64,000 nucleotides of DNA from Sanyastnella coralliicola. Lineage in GTDB: Bacteria > Bacteroidota > Bacteroidia > Flavobacteriales_D > Sanyastnellaceae. Positions 3,506 through 8,400 of this stretch are shown here, piece by piece (within the stretch, counting starts at the first letter, position 1; each line of letters starts with the position of its first letter). The notes under the pieces were generated by a model, which saw only the letters and a list, made by a program, of their open reading frames with translations, did no database searches and was not told the DNA's origin. The DNA lies in NCBI RefSeq assembly GCF_030845195.1, contig NZ_CP132543.1, positions 2,001,501 to 2,065,500 of the forward strand, in the 5' to 3' direction. The position numbers and the translations under genes are program-made.

Positions 3506-4513
3506 TCAGAATAGACCAAGGAACTCGAGAATATCCATGACATTCACGATTCCATCTCCATTGATGTCTCCGATACAATCGAAGCCTTGACAGCCTTGAT
3601 TCTCGAGTAATTCGAGTAAGTCATTCACGTCAATATCTCCGTCGAAATCAAGGTCACCCGGGTCACCCACATTCTCGGTTGTAGAGTACGCCGAGAAAGA
3701 ACCTGCTTGCAGTGCTACAATCGACTCTAATGCCGTATCTGAACCATCTCCAAGGGCCAAGCGAATGTGGTAGGTCTCTCCTACTGTTAAGCCCGTCTTG
3801 TAGGCTGTCAGCACCGTGGTATAGCCGTTCACGTAGATTCCTTCATTGTCGATATTGTCAACGTAGAATTCGCTATTGGTCTGGTCATTGATTGAACTCA
3901 CCGTAATTGGAACGTTTGGATCCGTTCCAGGAACGAAAGCAATATTTTCAGCCCCATCAGGGAAACCATCAGGAGCACTATAAGGACCTGTGATACCGGG
4001 ACCGCTAATAAAGAATGCGAACGCATCGTTGAATGCCGTATTTACCCACACTGGATACTCGTCTGATCCGAAGATGTAATTGAACGCCAAACTATCTCCG
4101 TAGGGAATGAAGTCGAACTCAAGTGAAACCACATCGTTAATGGCCGAAATCGAGAAATTCTGACCGATAAGTGGAGGTACAGAGTTGGCGATATCTAACA
4201 AATCAGCATCACCACTAACGCCCTCTCCGAAAGGAACCTCTCCAAAAGCGGGAGCATCATTCCCTGCATCAATGTTTTCTACGTCTGCGGTAGACATGAC
4301 CAATCCACTGTCTAATCCGATGACGCCCATATCCATGAACGAACCAATTTGGATGTCTGCTCCACCGTATTCAACGTCTTCAATTAAGACTCCGCTTCCG
4401 AGCAAGAAGTCAAAGACAAGATCATTGGCTGAAACATCAGGCTCAACTGAAACTTGAGAGAAAGCTGCTACGCTGATAACACTAGCAGCAAAGAGAGAGA
4501 GTATCGGTTTCAT
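3506..4513 (-). CDS. Choice-of-anchor L domain protein with dockerin-like C-terminus
   Basis: A 335-residue exported protein: signal peptide at 1-19 (V-A-A-F-S-Q), then a beta-rich domain typical of the choice-of-anchor L family (markers S-G-L-V-M-S-T-A near residue 70, F-N-Y-I-F-G-S-D-E-Y-P near 145, F-F-I-S-G-P-G near 167). The last 50 or so residues carry two calcium-loop repeats of dockerin/EF-hand type (D-L-D-F-D-G-D-I-D-V-N-D and D-I-N-G-D-G-I-V-N-V-M-D) separated by a Cys-x4-Cys pair. No canonical type IX secretion tail is visible, so the dockerin-like end may take the place of the usual anchor. It is a surface or matrix protein by family analogy; substrate or partner unknown. Confidence 0.85.
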   Translation of the reverse strand: MKPILSLFAASVISVAAFSQVSVEPDVSANDLVFDFLLGSGVLIEDVEYGGADIQIGSFMDMGVIGLDSGLVMSTADVENIDAGNDAPAFGEVPFGEGVSGDADLLDIANSVPPLIGQNFSISAINDVVSLEFDFIPYGDSLAFNYIFGSDEYPVWVNTAFNDAFAFFISGPGITGPYSAPDGFPDGAENIAFVPGTDPNVPITVSSINDQTNSEFYVDNIDNEGIYVNGYTTVLTAYKTGLTVGETYHIRLALGDGSDTALESIVALQAGSFSAYSTTENVGDPGDLDFDGDIDVNDLLELLENQGCQGFDCIGDINGDGIVNVMDILEFLGLF

Positions 4514-4598: not shown

Positions 4599-5273
4599 AT
4601 GAAACTCAAGCTGAAGAAACCAGGAGCTTATTTCATGGAGCTCCTGATCCTTATCGCCGGTATTACCATTTCCTTCATGCTAAATGAATGGCGAACCTCA
4701 CGCACAATGAGCGACGAACAAGCACGAATCATCGCTCAGCTGAAAACAGATCTTCAGCGAGACACAGCCTTGGCGCATCAGCAACTCAAATTCATGGAGC
4801 AAACGCGAGAAGCAGCTATCAGTTTATTAAAGTCAGAAGAACCGAAACCATTAGGTGATTATCGCAGCGATATTGCCATTATGGTTAACACGGTGTCGCA
4901 GCGATTTGCCTCTTCTACCTTCATTGAACTTGAGAGTACAGGAAAACTTGGTTTGATTGAAGACGATAATCTGAGAGGACGACTCATCTCTTATTACACA
5001 GCCGCTCAGCCAGCGATTTACGAGTGGCACGAGATTGATAAGTCGCAATACTTACCCATGATCACCAATTATATGAATACCTCGGTTCCATTCTCGCTGA
5101 ATTACAATTTCGCTGCCTTTTCTCCAGAAGATTCGGTCAAGTTCATTCAATCGATTCAAGCTGACGAATTCAAACACATTGTTCAGTTCAATGTCATCAT
5201 CAAAAGTGGTGTGGGCATGCATTGTCAAGCACTCTTGAGTGAGGCTGAAGCATTGCTCCAGGCTATCGAATAA
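4599..5273 (+). CDS. DUF6090-like single-pass membrane protein
   Basis: A 224-residue protein with one N-terminal membrane helix (residues about 10-28, L-L-I-L-I-A-G-I-T-I-S-F) directly followed by N-E-W-R, the hallmark of a Bacteroidota family annotated as DUF6090. The rest is a soluble, mostly helical domain with the F-I-E-L-E-S-T-G-K-L block near residues 107-116 that recurs in the family. Function is unknown. It is monocistronic, divergent from the gene at 3506-4513, and its stop codon abuts the terminator hairpin of the opposing cysteine-rich peptide unit. Confidence 0.75.
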   Translation: MKLKLKKPGAYFMELLILIAGITISFMLNEWRTSRTMSDEQARIIAQLKTDLQRDTALAHQQLKFMEQTREAAISLLKSEEPKPLGDYRSDIAIMVNTVSQRFASSTFIELESTGKLGLIEDDNLRGRLISYYTAAQPAIYEWHEIDKSQYLPMITNYMNTSVPFSLNYNFAAFSPEDSVKFIQSIQADEFKHIVQFNVIIKSGVGMHCQALLSEAEALLQAIE

Positions 5274-5302
5274 AAAAGGGCGGAAAAACTCCCACCCTTT
5301 TT
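5272..5302 (-). terminator. Intrinsic terminator of the sigma/Cys-rich unit
   Basis: On the minus strand the stem GGGTGG/CCGCCC closes completely if the U-G wobble is allowed, flanked by A5 and T6, and begins 4 nt after the stop of the Cys-rich ORF. On the plus strand the same hairpin has a C-A mismatch, so its better reading is as the end of the minus-strand unit, though it may stop both. Confidence 0.7.
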
Positions 5303-5305
5303 GCC

Positions 5306-5407
5306 TTAGCATTGGCAATTGCCACCTTGTTGATTCGGTGAACATTGGCAACAGCAGCAAGTACAACACCCGCTATCGTTACCACAACATGGATCATTTG
5401 ATTTCAT
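5306..5407 (-). CDS. 33-residue cysteine-rich peptide (11 Cys)
   Basis: A complete small ORF: ATG at 5407, TAA at 5306. Eleven of 33 residues are cysteine (positions 7, 8, 14, 15, 17, 18, 19, 20, 22, 31, 33), as a CC, a CC, a run of four, and CxC patterns, with the rest mostly Gly, Asn, Gln and Ser. No signal peptide is present. It lies 54 nt downstream of the sigma factor gene. A promoter copy matching the one before the sigma gene stands upstream of it and an intrinsic terminator directly follows. Metal or metalloid binding like metallothionein, or a thiol redox sensor for the sigma factor, are both plausible; neither can be decided from sequence. The sigma factor itself ends in C-S-C. I know of no named family for it. 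Confidence 0.75.
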   Translation of the reverse strand: MKSNDPCCGNDSGCCTCCCCQCSPNQQGGNCQC

Positions 5408-5434
5408 GAAGCTTTGTTTTAAGATTCACCCTAG

Positions 5435-5461
5435 TAGACGAAGGCAAATCAAAAAGACGCA
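5435..5461 (-). promoter_or_regulatory. Putative ECF-sigma promoter of the Cys-rich peptide gene
   Basis: A -35-like TGCGTCTTTTT (5461-5451), 10 nt, then a -10-like CGTCTA (5440-5435), all on the minus strand. The predicted start is near 5428, giving a leader of about 20 nt. The same two boxes with the same spacing precede the sigma gene. The -35 box begins directly after the sigma stop codon. Confidence 0.65.
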
Positions 5462-5983
5462 TTAGCAAGAACAATCCCGTGTTTTGGCGCTAACTATGTG
5501 ACCATACACATCTGACTCAATCTCACAACACTCGACAAACACATCCTTTAACCGTTGACGGGCACGTTGAACTCGTGATTTCAAAGCACTGTATCCAATC
5601 CCAAGCTCTTCGGCGATAGCCTTTTGAGAGCCACCTTCTAAATTTACCCGAGAAATAAGCTTCTGATCTTCCGTCGAAAGCTGCGTTAGCAGCGGTTGAA
5701 TACACGGAGAAAAATCAACGGATGACTCTTCTTCCATCCTTTCTGGAATATCCACGGTGAGTGAGGTATTCTGACGTTTAGTTCGGTAGTGATCAATGAT
5801 CGCATTTCGTGTGATTTGAAACACCCATGACTCTATCCGATCGTGCTCACGCACCGTGTGCACTTTCTGATGAATCTTCATGAAAACATCTTGAAGGAGA
5901 TCTTCCACCTCGTCCTGATGAACTTTGGTTCGGATAAATGCCTCAATCGGCTGTTTGAATTCTTCCCAGAGTGCTTCCGTCAT
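5462..5983 (-). CDS. SigZ-like ECF RNA polymerase sigma factor
   Basis: A 173-residue sigma-70 family protein with only regions 2 and 4. Region 2 has D-L-L-Q-D-V-F-M-K-I-H near residue 28 and the R-N-A-I-I-D-H-Y-R-T motif near 70; region 4 has the helix-turn-helix G-S-Q-K-A-I-A-E-E-L-G-I-G-Y-S-A-L-K-S-R-V. The C-terminal extension after region 4 carries E-C-C and ends D-C-S-C, as in SigZ-type factors, and could bind a metal or sense thiols. No anti-sigma gene is adjacent. The start M-T-E-A-L-W matches the family's usual N-terminus and leaves a leader of only a few nucleotides from the predicted promoter. It lies between a TonB receptor gene and the Cys-rich peptide gene on one strand. Confidence 0.9.
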   Translation of the reverse strand: MTEALWEEFKQPIEAFIRTKVHQDEVEDLLQDVFMKIHQKVHTVREHDRIESWVFQITRNAIIDHYRTKRQNTSLTVDIPERMEEESSVDFSPCIQPLLTQLSTEDQKLISRVNLEGGSQKAIAEELGIGYSALKSRVQRARQRLKDVFVECCEIESDVYGHIVSAKTRDCSC

Positions 5984-5994
5984 GTTTTCTTTGA

Positions 5995-6021
5995 TAGACG
6001 GCTACAATTGAAAAAGACGCA
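5995..6021 (-). promoter_or_regulatory. Putative autoregulated ECF promoter of the sigma gene
   Basis: TGCGTCTTTTT (6021-6011), 10 nt, then CGTCTA (6000-5995) on the minus strand, identical in boxes and spacing to the copy at 5435-5461, while flanks and spacer differ. The predicted start is about 5988, 5 nt before the ATG, so the message would be almost leaderless. Confidence 0.65.
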
Positions 6022-8400
6022 TTATCGACGCACCCTTCCGGAATATGTCATGGCCTCTCCCTTTCCGAAGCTGTAGCTAAAACCTAAGGTAAAGAATGTT
6101 CCACGCTGTGAAAAGCTGTAGAGGTAGAAGTCATCGCGATCAATAACGGTCTCACGAATTCGTGTAGCGAAAAGATCTCGCACGCTTGCGTTGATGACAC
6201 CTTTCCCCTTCCATAGCTTTTTACGTAAACCAAGATCAAGGCTCCAGGAAGCTGATTGCCTTCCTTGTACGGTGATTACGCTTGAGTTGTACTCTCCAGA
6301 CACTTCAAAATCAACGGTCTTTTGAAGCTTCATTTTCGCCGTCAACTCGCCTTCCCACTGATCTCCATTAAAATCAAAACGCTGGTCTTGGAACTCACCC
6401 CGGCGTTGGAAGAAACCATAATTGAAATCTCCCGTCAAGGTCAGCCACTTCATTGGCTCATACTTTCCGTTCAGTTCAATCCCTGTTTTATTCTCTGTTC
6501 CGATATTCAAAGGCATCGTCACATTGACGTTGTTCTCGAAGAATGAGACGCGTTCAACTACCTCGGTGGTGTAGAGATGGTATACACTTCCGTTCAATGA
6601 AACTTTTGGAAGGAGCATGATGGCCGTCAACTCATAGGAATCAGCAAACTCAGGCTGCAGATCCGGGTTTCCTTGACGAATGTTGAAGGCATTTCTGATG
6701 TTGAAGAATGGATTCAGATCCCATAAACGCGGACGGAAAATTCTTCGAGAGTATCCTGCCTGCAATGAGAATCGCTCCGTCGCTTTCCACGATGCATGGG
6801 CCGTCGGAAAGAGATTAGTGTAGTTCTGATCGTTCGCCTCTTCGGTATCAACCAGGAAGGTATTCAGGTCAGTGTTCTCTACGCGAAGTCCGAGCTTCAC
6901 ACCCCAGTTTGACTTTTCATAGGCCGCTGTTCCGTATACACCGAGCACTTTCTGATTCCATTCAAAGGTGTTCGTCAATCCGCTATCTACCACCCATACT
7001 CCATCAACGAGGTCAGAAACTTTGAATTCATTTCCTACATCATTGATTTGGTATTGAAAGCCCGTTTCAAGTGTTACCAGCTCAGACACAGGATCAGTAT
7101 AATCAAGCTTGAAGGTGTAATCAGACTGAAAGAAGTTCGATGCCGTTTGCTGAAATTCATCTTCAACTGCATTAGACAACGCGGTATTGGTGAATTCTGA
7201 TTCAAGGTCTTTTCCGAAGAAATTACCAAGTGCACTGAATTGAAGTTTGTGTTCTTTGTCGTCTTTGAACTGCTTCTCGTACTGCACATCATAACGCCAT
7301 TTCGGATTCACCGCACTTGTCACTTCTGTGCGTTCCCATGCTGGAATCGCCTCTTCCCCAATGCTGTAGAAATTGAAATCCGTTTCAGAAGGTTGATCTT
7401 CTAACTCAAGCGCGTAGTTTCCAGAAATCGTAATCGTATTGAAATCATTCAAGTAGAAGTCACTTCCAAGCAGAATATTTACAAACTGCTCGTTTCGGTA
7501 CGCCACCCCATCACTCTCAATGATCGTGCTGTCGAGCCTGTTGATATTCGTGCTCTCATTAAACCTTGGAAGTGAACGATACCCACCGCCCAATTGCGTG
7601 AACAGATTGAGTTTTTTGGTGCGGTAATTCAAACTAGCTCCAATGCTATGATTGTCTGGAATACCTGTATTAACTGAGATCGAGCCGTTAATTCCGGTCT
7701 TCTCCTCCTTCTTCAGAACGATATTTAGAATTCCAGAGGTCCCACCGGCCTCATACTTCGCAGAAGGATTGGTGATCACTTCTACCTTCTCAATCATATC
7801 TGAAGTAATGGTACCTAAAGCGTTGGCGCCGTCATCTGAAAGCACAGACGGTTTACCATCAATCAGAATTTGTACACCGCCATTTCCACGCAGCGTGATA
7901 TTCCCTTCAATATCAACGTTGACTGAGGGCACTTGATCTAGCACCTCTAATGCACCCGCTCCCGTGCTACTAATGTCTTTACCTACGTTAAACACGCGTT
8001 TATCGAGCTTGAATTCTACCGTCGATTTCTCGGCTGCTACTTCTGCTTCTTCTAGCGCTAGCGCGGAACGAGTGAGTCCTACTTCACCGAGATTATTCTC
8101 AGTAGCATTCAGACTTCGATTCTCTATCACCAGTGTTTCGTATCCAATGAATGAGATCTGAATCTTGATATCTTCAGCATTGACGCTAGCGCGGAATTGG
8201 CCACTTTCATCGGTACTGGTACCTCCAATGACTGAATCATCGGCCAATTGGAAGACCACTGTAGCGTAAGGAATCCCATCTCCAGAATCCGCATCGATCA
8301 CTTTCCCAGTGATGATTTTGGCGTCAGATTGACCCATAACAGTGCTGATGCAGCACAGGAGTGCGCCCAGAAAAAGTCCGATTCTAATGATGTAGCTCAT
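6022..8400 (-). CDS. TonB-dependent receptor, OMP_b-brl_3 type
   Basis: A 792-residue outer-membrane protein. A signal peptide ends near residue 23 (S-T-V-M-G-Q); residues about 30-115 form a carboxypeptidase-regulatory-like beta-sandwich (I-T-G-K-V-I-D, G-I-P-Y-A-T-V); the plug lies near 145-235 (Q-V-P-S-V-N-V-D, L-R-G-N-G-G-V-Q-I-L-I-D-G, K-V-E-V-I-T-N-P-S-A-K-Y) and a C-terminal barrel follows. No TonB box of SusC type and no SusD neighbour exist, so it is not a polysaccharide locus. The substrate is unknown; linkage to a thiol-rich sigma module hints at metal or metalloid but this is inference. It ends R-V-R-R rather than the usual terminal aromatic. The stop codon directly precedes the -35 box of the sigma promoter. 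Confidence 0.9.
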   Translation of the reverse strand: MSYIIRIGLFLGALLCCISTVMGQSDAKIITGKVIDADSGDGIPYATVVFQLADDSVIGGTSTDESGQFRASVNAEDIKIQISFIGYETLVIENRSLNATENNLGEVGLTRSALALEEAEVAAEKSTVEFKLDKRVFNVGKDISSTGAGALEVLDQVPSVNVDIEGNITLRGNGGVQILIDGKPSVLSDDGANALGTITSDMIEKVEVITNPSAKYEAGGTSGILNIVLKKEEKTGINGSISVNTGIPDNHSIGASLNYRTKKLNLFTQLGGGYRSLPRFNESTNINRLDSTIIESDGVAYRNEQFVNILLGSDFYLNDFNTITISGNYALELEDQPSETDFNFYSIGEEAIPAWERTEVTSAVNPKWRYDVQYEKQFKDDKEHKLQFSALGNFFGKDLESEFTNTALSNAVEDEFQQTASNFFQSDYTFKLDYTDPVSELVTLETGFQYQINDVGNEFKVSDLVDGVWVVDSGLTNTFEWNQKVLGVYGTAAYEKSNWGVKLGLRVENTDLNTFLVDTEEANDQNYTNLFPTAHASWKATERFSLQAGYSRRIFRPRLWDLNPFFNIRNAFNIRQGNPDLQPEFADSYELTAIMLLPKVSLNGSVYHLYTTEVVERVSFFENNVNVTMPLNIGTENKTGIELNGKYEPMKWLTLTGDFNYGFFQRRGEFQDQRFDFNGDQWEGELTAKMKLQKTVDFEVSGEYNSSVITVQGRQSASWSLDLGLRKKLWKGKGVINASVRDLFATRIRETVIDRDDFYLYSFSQRGTFFTLGFSYSFGKGEAMTYSGRVRR
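8056..8068 (+). repeat. 13-bp iterated motif, copy 3
   Basis: Exact copy, antisense to the TonB receptor gene, which reads S-A-L-A here. The base before it (G) breaks the usual T or A. Confidence 0.8.
8184..8196 (+). repeat. 13-bp iterated motif, copy 4
   Basis: Exact copy 128 bp from copy 3, antisense to the same gene but in a different phase: the protein reads F-R-A-S-V. Confidence 0.8.

Follow-up and report, generated by a model that had tools for sequence, protein, structure and literature searches.

The extracytoplasmic function (ECF) sigma factor CorE of Myxococcus xanthus is copper-dependent, has a cysteine-rich tail and no linked anti-sigma factor, and needs the cysteines at its C-terminus in order to be controlled by copper (PMC3107203). 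Abundant C-terminal cysteines also occur in ECF287 and ECF288, for which a CorE-like way of working has been proposed (PMC8999054). For SigZ of Bacillus subtilis, no function is given in a 2023 review table (PMC10141391). Here, we describe a SigZ-type ECF sigma gene, sigZ, and a gene for a cysteine-rich micropeptide that lie together in a 64,000-nucleotide stretch of the Sanyastnella coralliicola genome (hereafter the window), each preceded by a copy of the same putative promoter box. SigZ is probably a one-component, thiol/metal(loid)-sensing ECF sigma factor that works without an anti-sigma factor and drives both itself and a metallothionein-like micropeptide effector. ArsR/SmtB-metallothionein and ars operons follow a related logic, in which a metal(loid) sensor controls itself together with metallothionein or ars genes; ArsR/SmtB, however, is a repressor, whereas in the proposed module an activator, the sigma factor, would do the sensing.

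The window sigma factor passes the cut-off of the SigZ model TIGR02959 (179.2 bits, cut-off 168.65) and scores below that of the narrower model NF007215 (189.3 versus 212). Like B. subtilis SigZ and TIGR02959, it has a sigma region 2/4 match above cut-off and cysteines in a C-terminal extension. Cys94 lies in the linker between sigma2 and sigma4, Cys152-Cys153 follow region 4, and Cys171 and Cys173 are C-terminal; both the model match and the resulting tail (ECC...CSC) bear out the first-pass annotation of this DNA, which had named a SigZ-like sigma factor with a cysteine-rich tail. Across an alignment of 69 SigZ proteins, C152 was kept in 66, C153 in 64 and C173 in 66 (93-96%), and from it we defined a C-terminal CC plus a terminal cysteine as a family trait, which the window SigZ carries. 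Fluviicola L016 was left out of the cysteine tables because its sigma reading frame is broken in the metagenome-assembled genome (MAG). The last 35 residues of SigZ proteins hold a mean of 4.1 cysteines, versus 0-1 in the seven other ECF sigma factors of the host genome. An AlphaFold model of modest confidence (predicted local distance difference test, pLDDT, 54-68 in the tail) contains a beta-hairpin, 153-157/163-168, in the C-terminus, which is predicted to place C152-C153 beside C171/C173.

SigZ resembles CorE and CorE2 (ECF44, now ECF238) in its cysteine-rich C-terminal extension, a linker cysteine and, putatively, metal-resistance targets (PMC3107203, PMC8999054). The tail cysteines of CorE, however, follow the pattern C-x2-C-x7-C-x-C (Cys181/184/192/194; PMC3107203), whereas those of the window SigZ follow CC-x17-C-x-C, and the CorE-type linker carries CXC (PMC8999054) where the window SigZ has the single Cys94 (SPCIQ). 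Because cysteine spacing and linker motif differ, we did not file SigZ as a CorE; by analogy, it would work like CorE in logic without being a member of that group. No CorE-type members from Bacteroidota were listed in the 2011 survey, and CorE targets are copper enzymes and transporters, whereas the putative target of the window SigZ is a micropeptide. The elements of the locus, in minus-strand gene order, are as follows.

6022-8400, minus strand: TonB-type outer-membrane receptor, first in the gene order.
5995-6021, minus strand: SigZ box (putative -35/-10 pair) before sigZ, TGCGTCTTTTTCAATTGTAGCCGTCTA; exact match, one of two in the genome.
5462-5983, minus strand: sigZ, SigZ-type ECF sigma factor of 173 residues; TIGR02959 match above cut-off, with cysteines conserved in the 69 SigZ proteins.
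5435-5461, minus strand: SigZ box before the micropeptide, TGCGTCTTTTTGATTTGCCTTCGTCTA; exact match, the other of the two in the genome.
5306-5407, minus strand: cysteine-rich micropeptide open reading frame (ORF) MKSNDPCCGNDSGCCTCCCCQCSPNQQGGNCQC, 33 residues, 11 cysteines; ORF call, with a putative metallothionein-like effector role.
5273-5302, minus strand: terminator hairpin 3' of the peptide stop, common to the convergent gene at 4599-5273.

The first-pass annotation had proposed that a duplicated box, with equal spacing and different spacers, precedes both genes, and the sequence agrees exactly. Within the 4,097,636 bases of the host genome (a single contig of 4.10 Mb, for which the nearest relative found was a Flavobacteriales MAG), the box TGCGTCTTTTT-N10-CGTCTA has exactly two exact matches, one before sigZ and one before the 33-residue ORF. 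Hexamer spacing is 15 nucleotides in both, and the spacers are unrelated. No further site was found in this genome at up to two mismatches, so no additional regulon members were found, and sites with three mismatches were at chance level (9, versus 10 with a reversed control). One looser match (C1:3928531, identical in the congener G048) was set aside as chance or coding. Because the -10 element of the sigZ box ends 11 nucleotides upstream of the ATG, the sigZ mRNA is predicted to be leaderless or nearly so. The hairpin at 5302-5273 (-17.3 kcal/mol, z -3.4, with 0 of 200 shuffles equally stable) matches the terminator that had been noted after the peptide stop.

SigZ, scored as present at E<=1e-36 to TIGR02959 in a sample of one genome per species, is patchily distributed: within the order, 26 of 399 genomes have it, and in a sample across the phylum, 43 of 395. 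Of the 26 SigZ-positive genomes of the order, 14 carried a strict form of the box, TGCGTCYTTTTN9-11CGTCT, versus 5 of the 373 SigZ-negative ones (Fisher p=4e-15), and all 19 strict-box sites in those SigZ-positive genomes adjoin sigZ. Four of the five strict boxes in SigZ-negative genomes have a 9-nucleotide gap, which is absent from the sites that built the motif. Among 73 SigZ loci that we collected, two layouts recur. The window type, box-sigZ-box-peptide, was found at 20 loci, and a weight matrix placed boxes ahead of sigZ (20/20) and of the peptide (19/20); in the other, box-peptide-sigZ as a single operon (18 loci), a box precedes the peptide in 18/18. The claims that the sigma gene has its own box and that a cysteine-rich ORF stands under the same one, first made for the window alone, extend to relatives. 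Because the sigma -10 element ends 7-15 nucleotides before the start codon in 18/20 loci of the window layout, a conserved leaderless or near-leaderless sigma mRNA is predicted there; peptide messages have longer leaders. In one genome without SigZ at the threshold, a SigZ-type box of normal spacing lies in intergenic DNA, and no peptide was seen with it (L178; G265:C43:58875). SigZ-like matches on enterobacterial plasmids (~31% identity) were taken as other ECF sigma factors.

Cysteine-rich ORFs, defined by at least 6 cysteines and at least 15% cysteine, were 65 times as dense next to SigZ (39 in 119 kb) as in the rest of those loci (4 in 797 strand-kb). The first-pass annotation had made its proposal depend on conservation of the ORF and the box pair beside SigZ in relatives, and this enrichment, together with the box counts above, attests to both. 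Relatives' peptides span 26-61 residues, with conserved cysteine columns and variable cysteine spacing. In a trio from three species of one genus the protein is identical, and the codon differences per pair (5, 5 and 4, or 14 summed over the pairs) are synonymous, with 0 nonsynonymous; in other genera, cysteine columns are nearly invariant and the intervening residues drift. Because the changes in the trio are purely synonymous and the cysteine columns nearly invariant, the ORF is, judged by its sequence evolution, a true gene, with purifying selection acting on the relatives' peptides. The window peptide also fits the traits of metallothioneins (short, about one-third cysteine in CC/CxC/CxxC, free of aromatic residues and histidine): 11 of its 33 residues are cysteines, and it has no aromatic residues or histidines. 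No recognized anti-sigma domain was found in the peptides, the eight searched having no Pfam match.

In the congener G048, the sigma factor is intact and 90% identical to that of the window (ratio of nonsynonymous to synonymous substitution rates, dN/dS, 0.14), and the sigma box is retained with one mismatch, CGTCTA being kept. The peptide is truncated after ~13 codons and its box is without a -10 sequence; peptide and promoter decayed together. At this locus (G048/L014), sequence like the interior of the convergent gene 4599-5273 appears fused to the broken peptide gene, which points to a deletion or rearrangement at this place.

Peptide-less SigZ loci carry the box before other genes: arsM (L101, L102, gammaproteobacterial L015, L017), ArsI/CadI genes (L057-L059, L062, L068, L105, L106, L180) and ArsI-ACR3-ArsC gene sets (L108, L182); at L103, ArsC and an aquaporin are nearby. 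Arsenic genes were identified from their similarity to single query sequences. Representative proteins were above curated cut-offs for arsenite methyltransferase, the ArsI/CadI family and ACR3, and the ArsC-like protein matched arsenate-reductase models below their cut-offs. A further product, which we take to be ArsO, had no NCBIfam match, and omitting it leaves the pattern unchanged. Of the 35 peptide-less loci, 24 have a significant box downstream of sigZ, and only 4 have a box before it. Across the 73 loci, 37 had the peptide only, 21 arsenic genes only, 14 neither and 1 both (Fisher p=4e-8), so that peptide and arsenic genes all but exclude each other. The states interleave on the SigZ tree, with 15 changes versus a possible 3, and the exclusivity is therefore not one lineage effect. 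Linker C94 was found in 36/36 peptide-linked SigZ proteins versus 5/20 arsenic-linked ones.

The conserved box pair, the conserved ORF under selection, the conservation of SigZ cysteines and the exchange of peptide for resistance genes behind the same box were each computed directly. Across Bacteroidota, the SigZ-peptide pair recurs at the position in which other SigZ genes presumably govern resistance to arsenic and heavy metals, which points to a metal-detoxification module. We infer that the box is active and is read by SigZ, that metal acts on SigZ directly and that the peptide is a metal binder. SigZ would have no anti-sigma partner, its activity being set by its own cysteines, namely Cys152-Cys153, the C-x-C tail and, in peptide-linked members, linker Cys94. 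A thiophilic metal or metalloid, putatively arsenite, cadmium, copper or similar, would bind these cysteines, and metal-bound SigZ would open the promoter TTTGCGTCYTTTT-N10/11-CGTCTW. The level of sigZ would rise by positive feedback through the near-leaderless message, and the cysteine-rich peptide of 26-60 residues would be made and would act, much as a minimal metallothionein does, as a sink for metal(loid) in the cytoplasm. With the metal absorbed by the peptide, the signal would drop and the loop close down. More tentatively, the whole SigZ family may be a class of one-component sigma factors that sense metal(loid)s through cysteines and whose outputs can be exchanged: an arsenite type with three cysteines (C152, C153, C173) driving arsM, ArsI/CadI or ACR3, and a type with four (adding C94) that responds to another thiophilic metal and drives itself and a family of unannotated, metallothionein-like micropeptides across Bacteroidota.

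Several observations weigh against the detoxification reading. Related genera and species enter the counts and are not independent of one another. No arsenic genes were found near peptide-type loci save for one probable case (L088). The structure model is only modestly confident in the tail that would hold the metal. No curated metallothionein family matched the peptides (Pfam at E<=1 for eight peptides; NCBIfam for the window peptide and two relatives), a null to be read with the caveat that profiles this short seldom score. In G048, sigZ remains intact though its sole box-linked target is broken, so that either the break is recent or there are further targets of SigZ.

The main rival is that the peptide is chiefly a feedback regulator, which binds SigZ or withdraws its metal in place of an anti-sigma factor, and is not a detoxification product. 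The peptide is the sole conserved partner, sits under the same box and sometimes ahead of sigZ in one operon, and C94, invariant in peptide-linked members and mostly missing from arsenic-type ones, behaves as a co-evolving contact might. The first-pass annotation had supposed that a normal anti-sigma factor is missing; in line with this, the 71 flanking genes of peptide-type loci matched 86 Pfam families, and no anti-sigma family was among the 25 listed, nor was there a common partner, no Pfam family occurring in more than 4 of the 71. Yet peptide-less SigZ loci use the same box for resistance enzymes, which means that SigZ is controlled there without a peptide; peptide length (26-61 residues) and cysteine spacing vary, unlike a protein-protein interface; and the G048 sigma factor persists without an intact peptide. 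We consider this account unlikely. The metal-buffer role, one of those first offered for the peptide, is the one that we favor, since resistance genes stand behind the same promoter in peptide-less loci and the exchange with them speaks for the peptide as the regulated output, or effector. The idea of an anti-sigma stand-in as its main role fares worse, given that about half of the SigZ family is without a peptide, and many of those members have this promoter in front of arsenic/heavy-metal resistance genes; such a replacement is possible, and less likely than a regulated detoxification product. Alongside its effector role, the peptide may exert feedback through competition for metal.

Slightly less probable again is that SigZ senses disulfide or electrophile stress and not metal, with the peptide as a thiol redox buffer. 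A cysteine-only signature in both proteins would suit this, as would the position of the box in one subclade, ahead of a thioredoxin-like gene and a permease, but the recurring alternative targets (ArsM, ArsI/CadI, ACR3, ArsC) are specific to arsenic and heavy metals. That the box pair is a translational device or a chance or copied repeat, and not a promoter, seems very improbable. Both window boxes do overlap the upstream gene's stop codon (TAATGCGTC), so that TAATG could couple that stop to the start of a short ORF (MRLF...). The lack of a conserved ATG ruled out the leader-ORF idea, most relatives having TTTGCGTC in the weight matrix; moreover, the spacers differ between boxes, and the box is intergenic, keeps a -35/-10 spacing (10-11 nucleotides between blocks) and stands ahead of unrelated genes. 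Genome-wide counts and recurrence across the phylum ruled out a chance repeat.

We found no description in the open-licence literature of SigZ with arsenic, metallothionein or a cysteine-rich micropeptide, or of its promoter motif. With the detoxification reading, SigZ, so far listed without function, would gain a defined promoter, a set of targets and a role that experiments can probe, and direct metal sensing by sigma factors would extend past CorE to another family and phylum. The genes for cysteine-rich peptides of 26-60 residues are probably often left unannotated; their promoter gives a handle for finding them, and they would add a new source of metallothionein-like metal sinks in bacteria.

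Some SigZ loci depart from these patterns. At L077 and L181, SigZ relatives are without most of the C-terminal cysteine cluster and the box precedes a PhzF-like isomerase (named by eye); because that cluster is mostly gone, these few members may have lost metal sensing. A SigZ subclade (L050, L114, L192, L202) has a box-like sequence before a Thioredoxin_3-like protein, with a permease next in L050, L192 and L202, and the L202 locus belongs to a mobilizable Arenibacter plasmid and has recombinases nearby. Elsewhere in the window, the convergent gene at 4599-5273 has a weak DUF6090 match under the cut-off, and 3506-4513 encodes, with no Pfam match, a secreted-looking protein with a dockerin-like C-terminal repeat (DLDFDGDIDVNDLLELL...GDINGDGIVNVMDILEFL).

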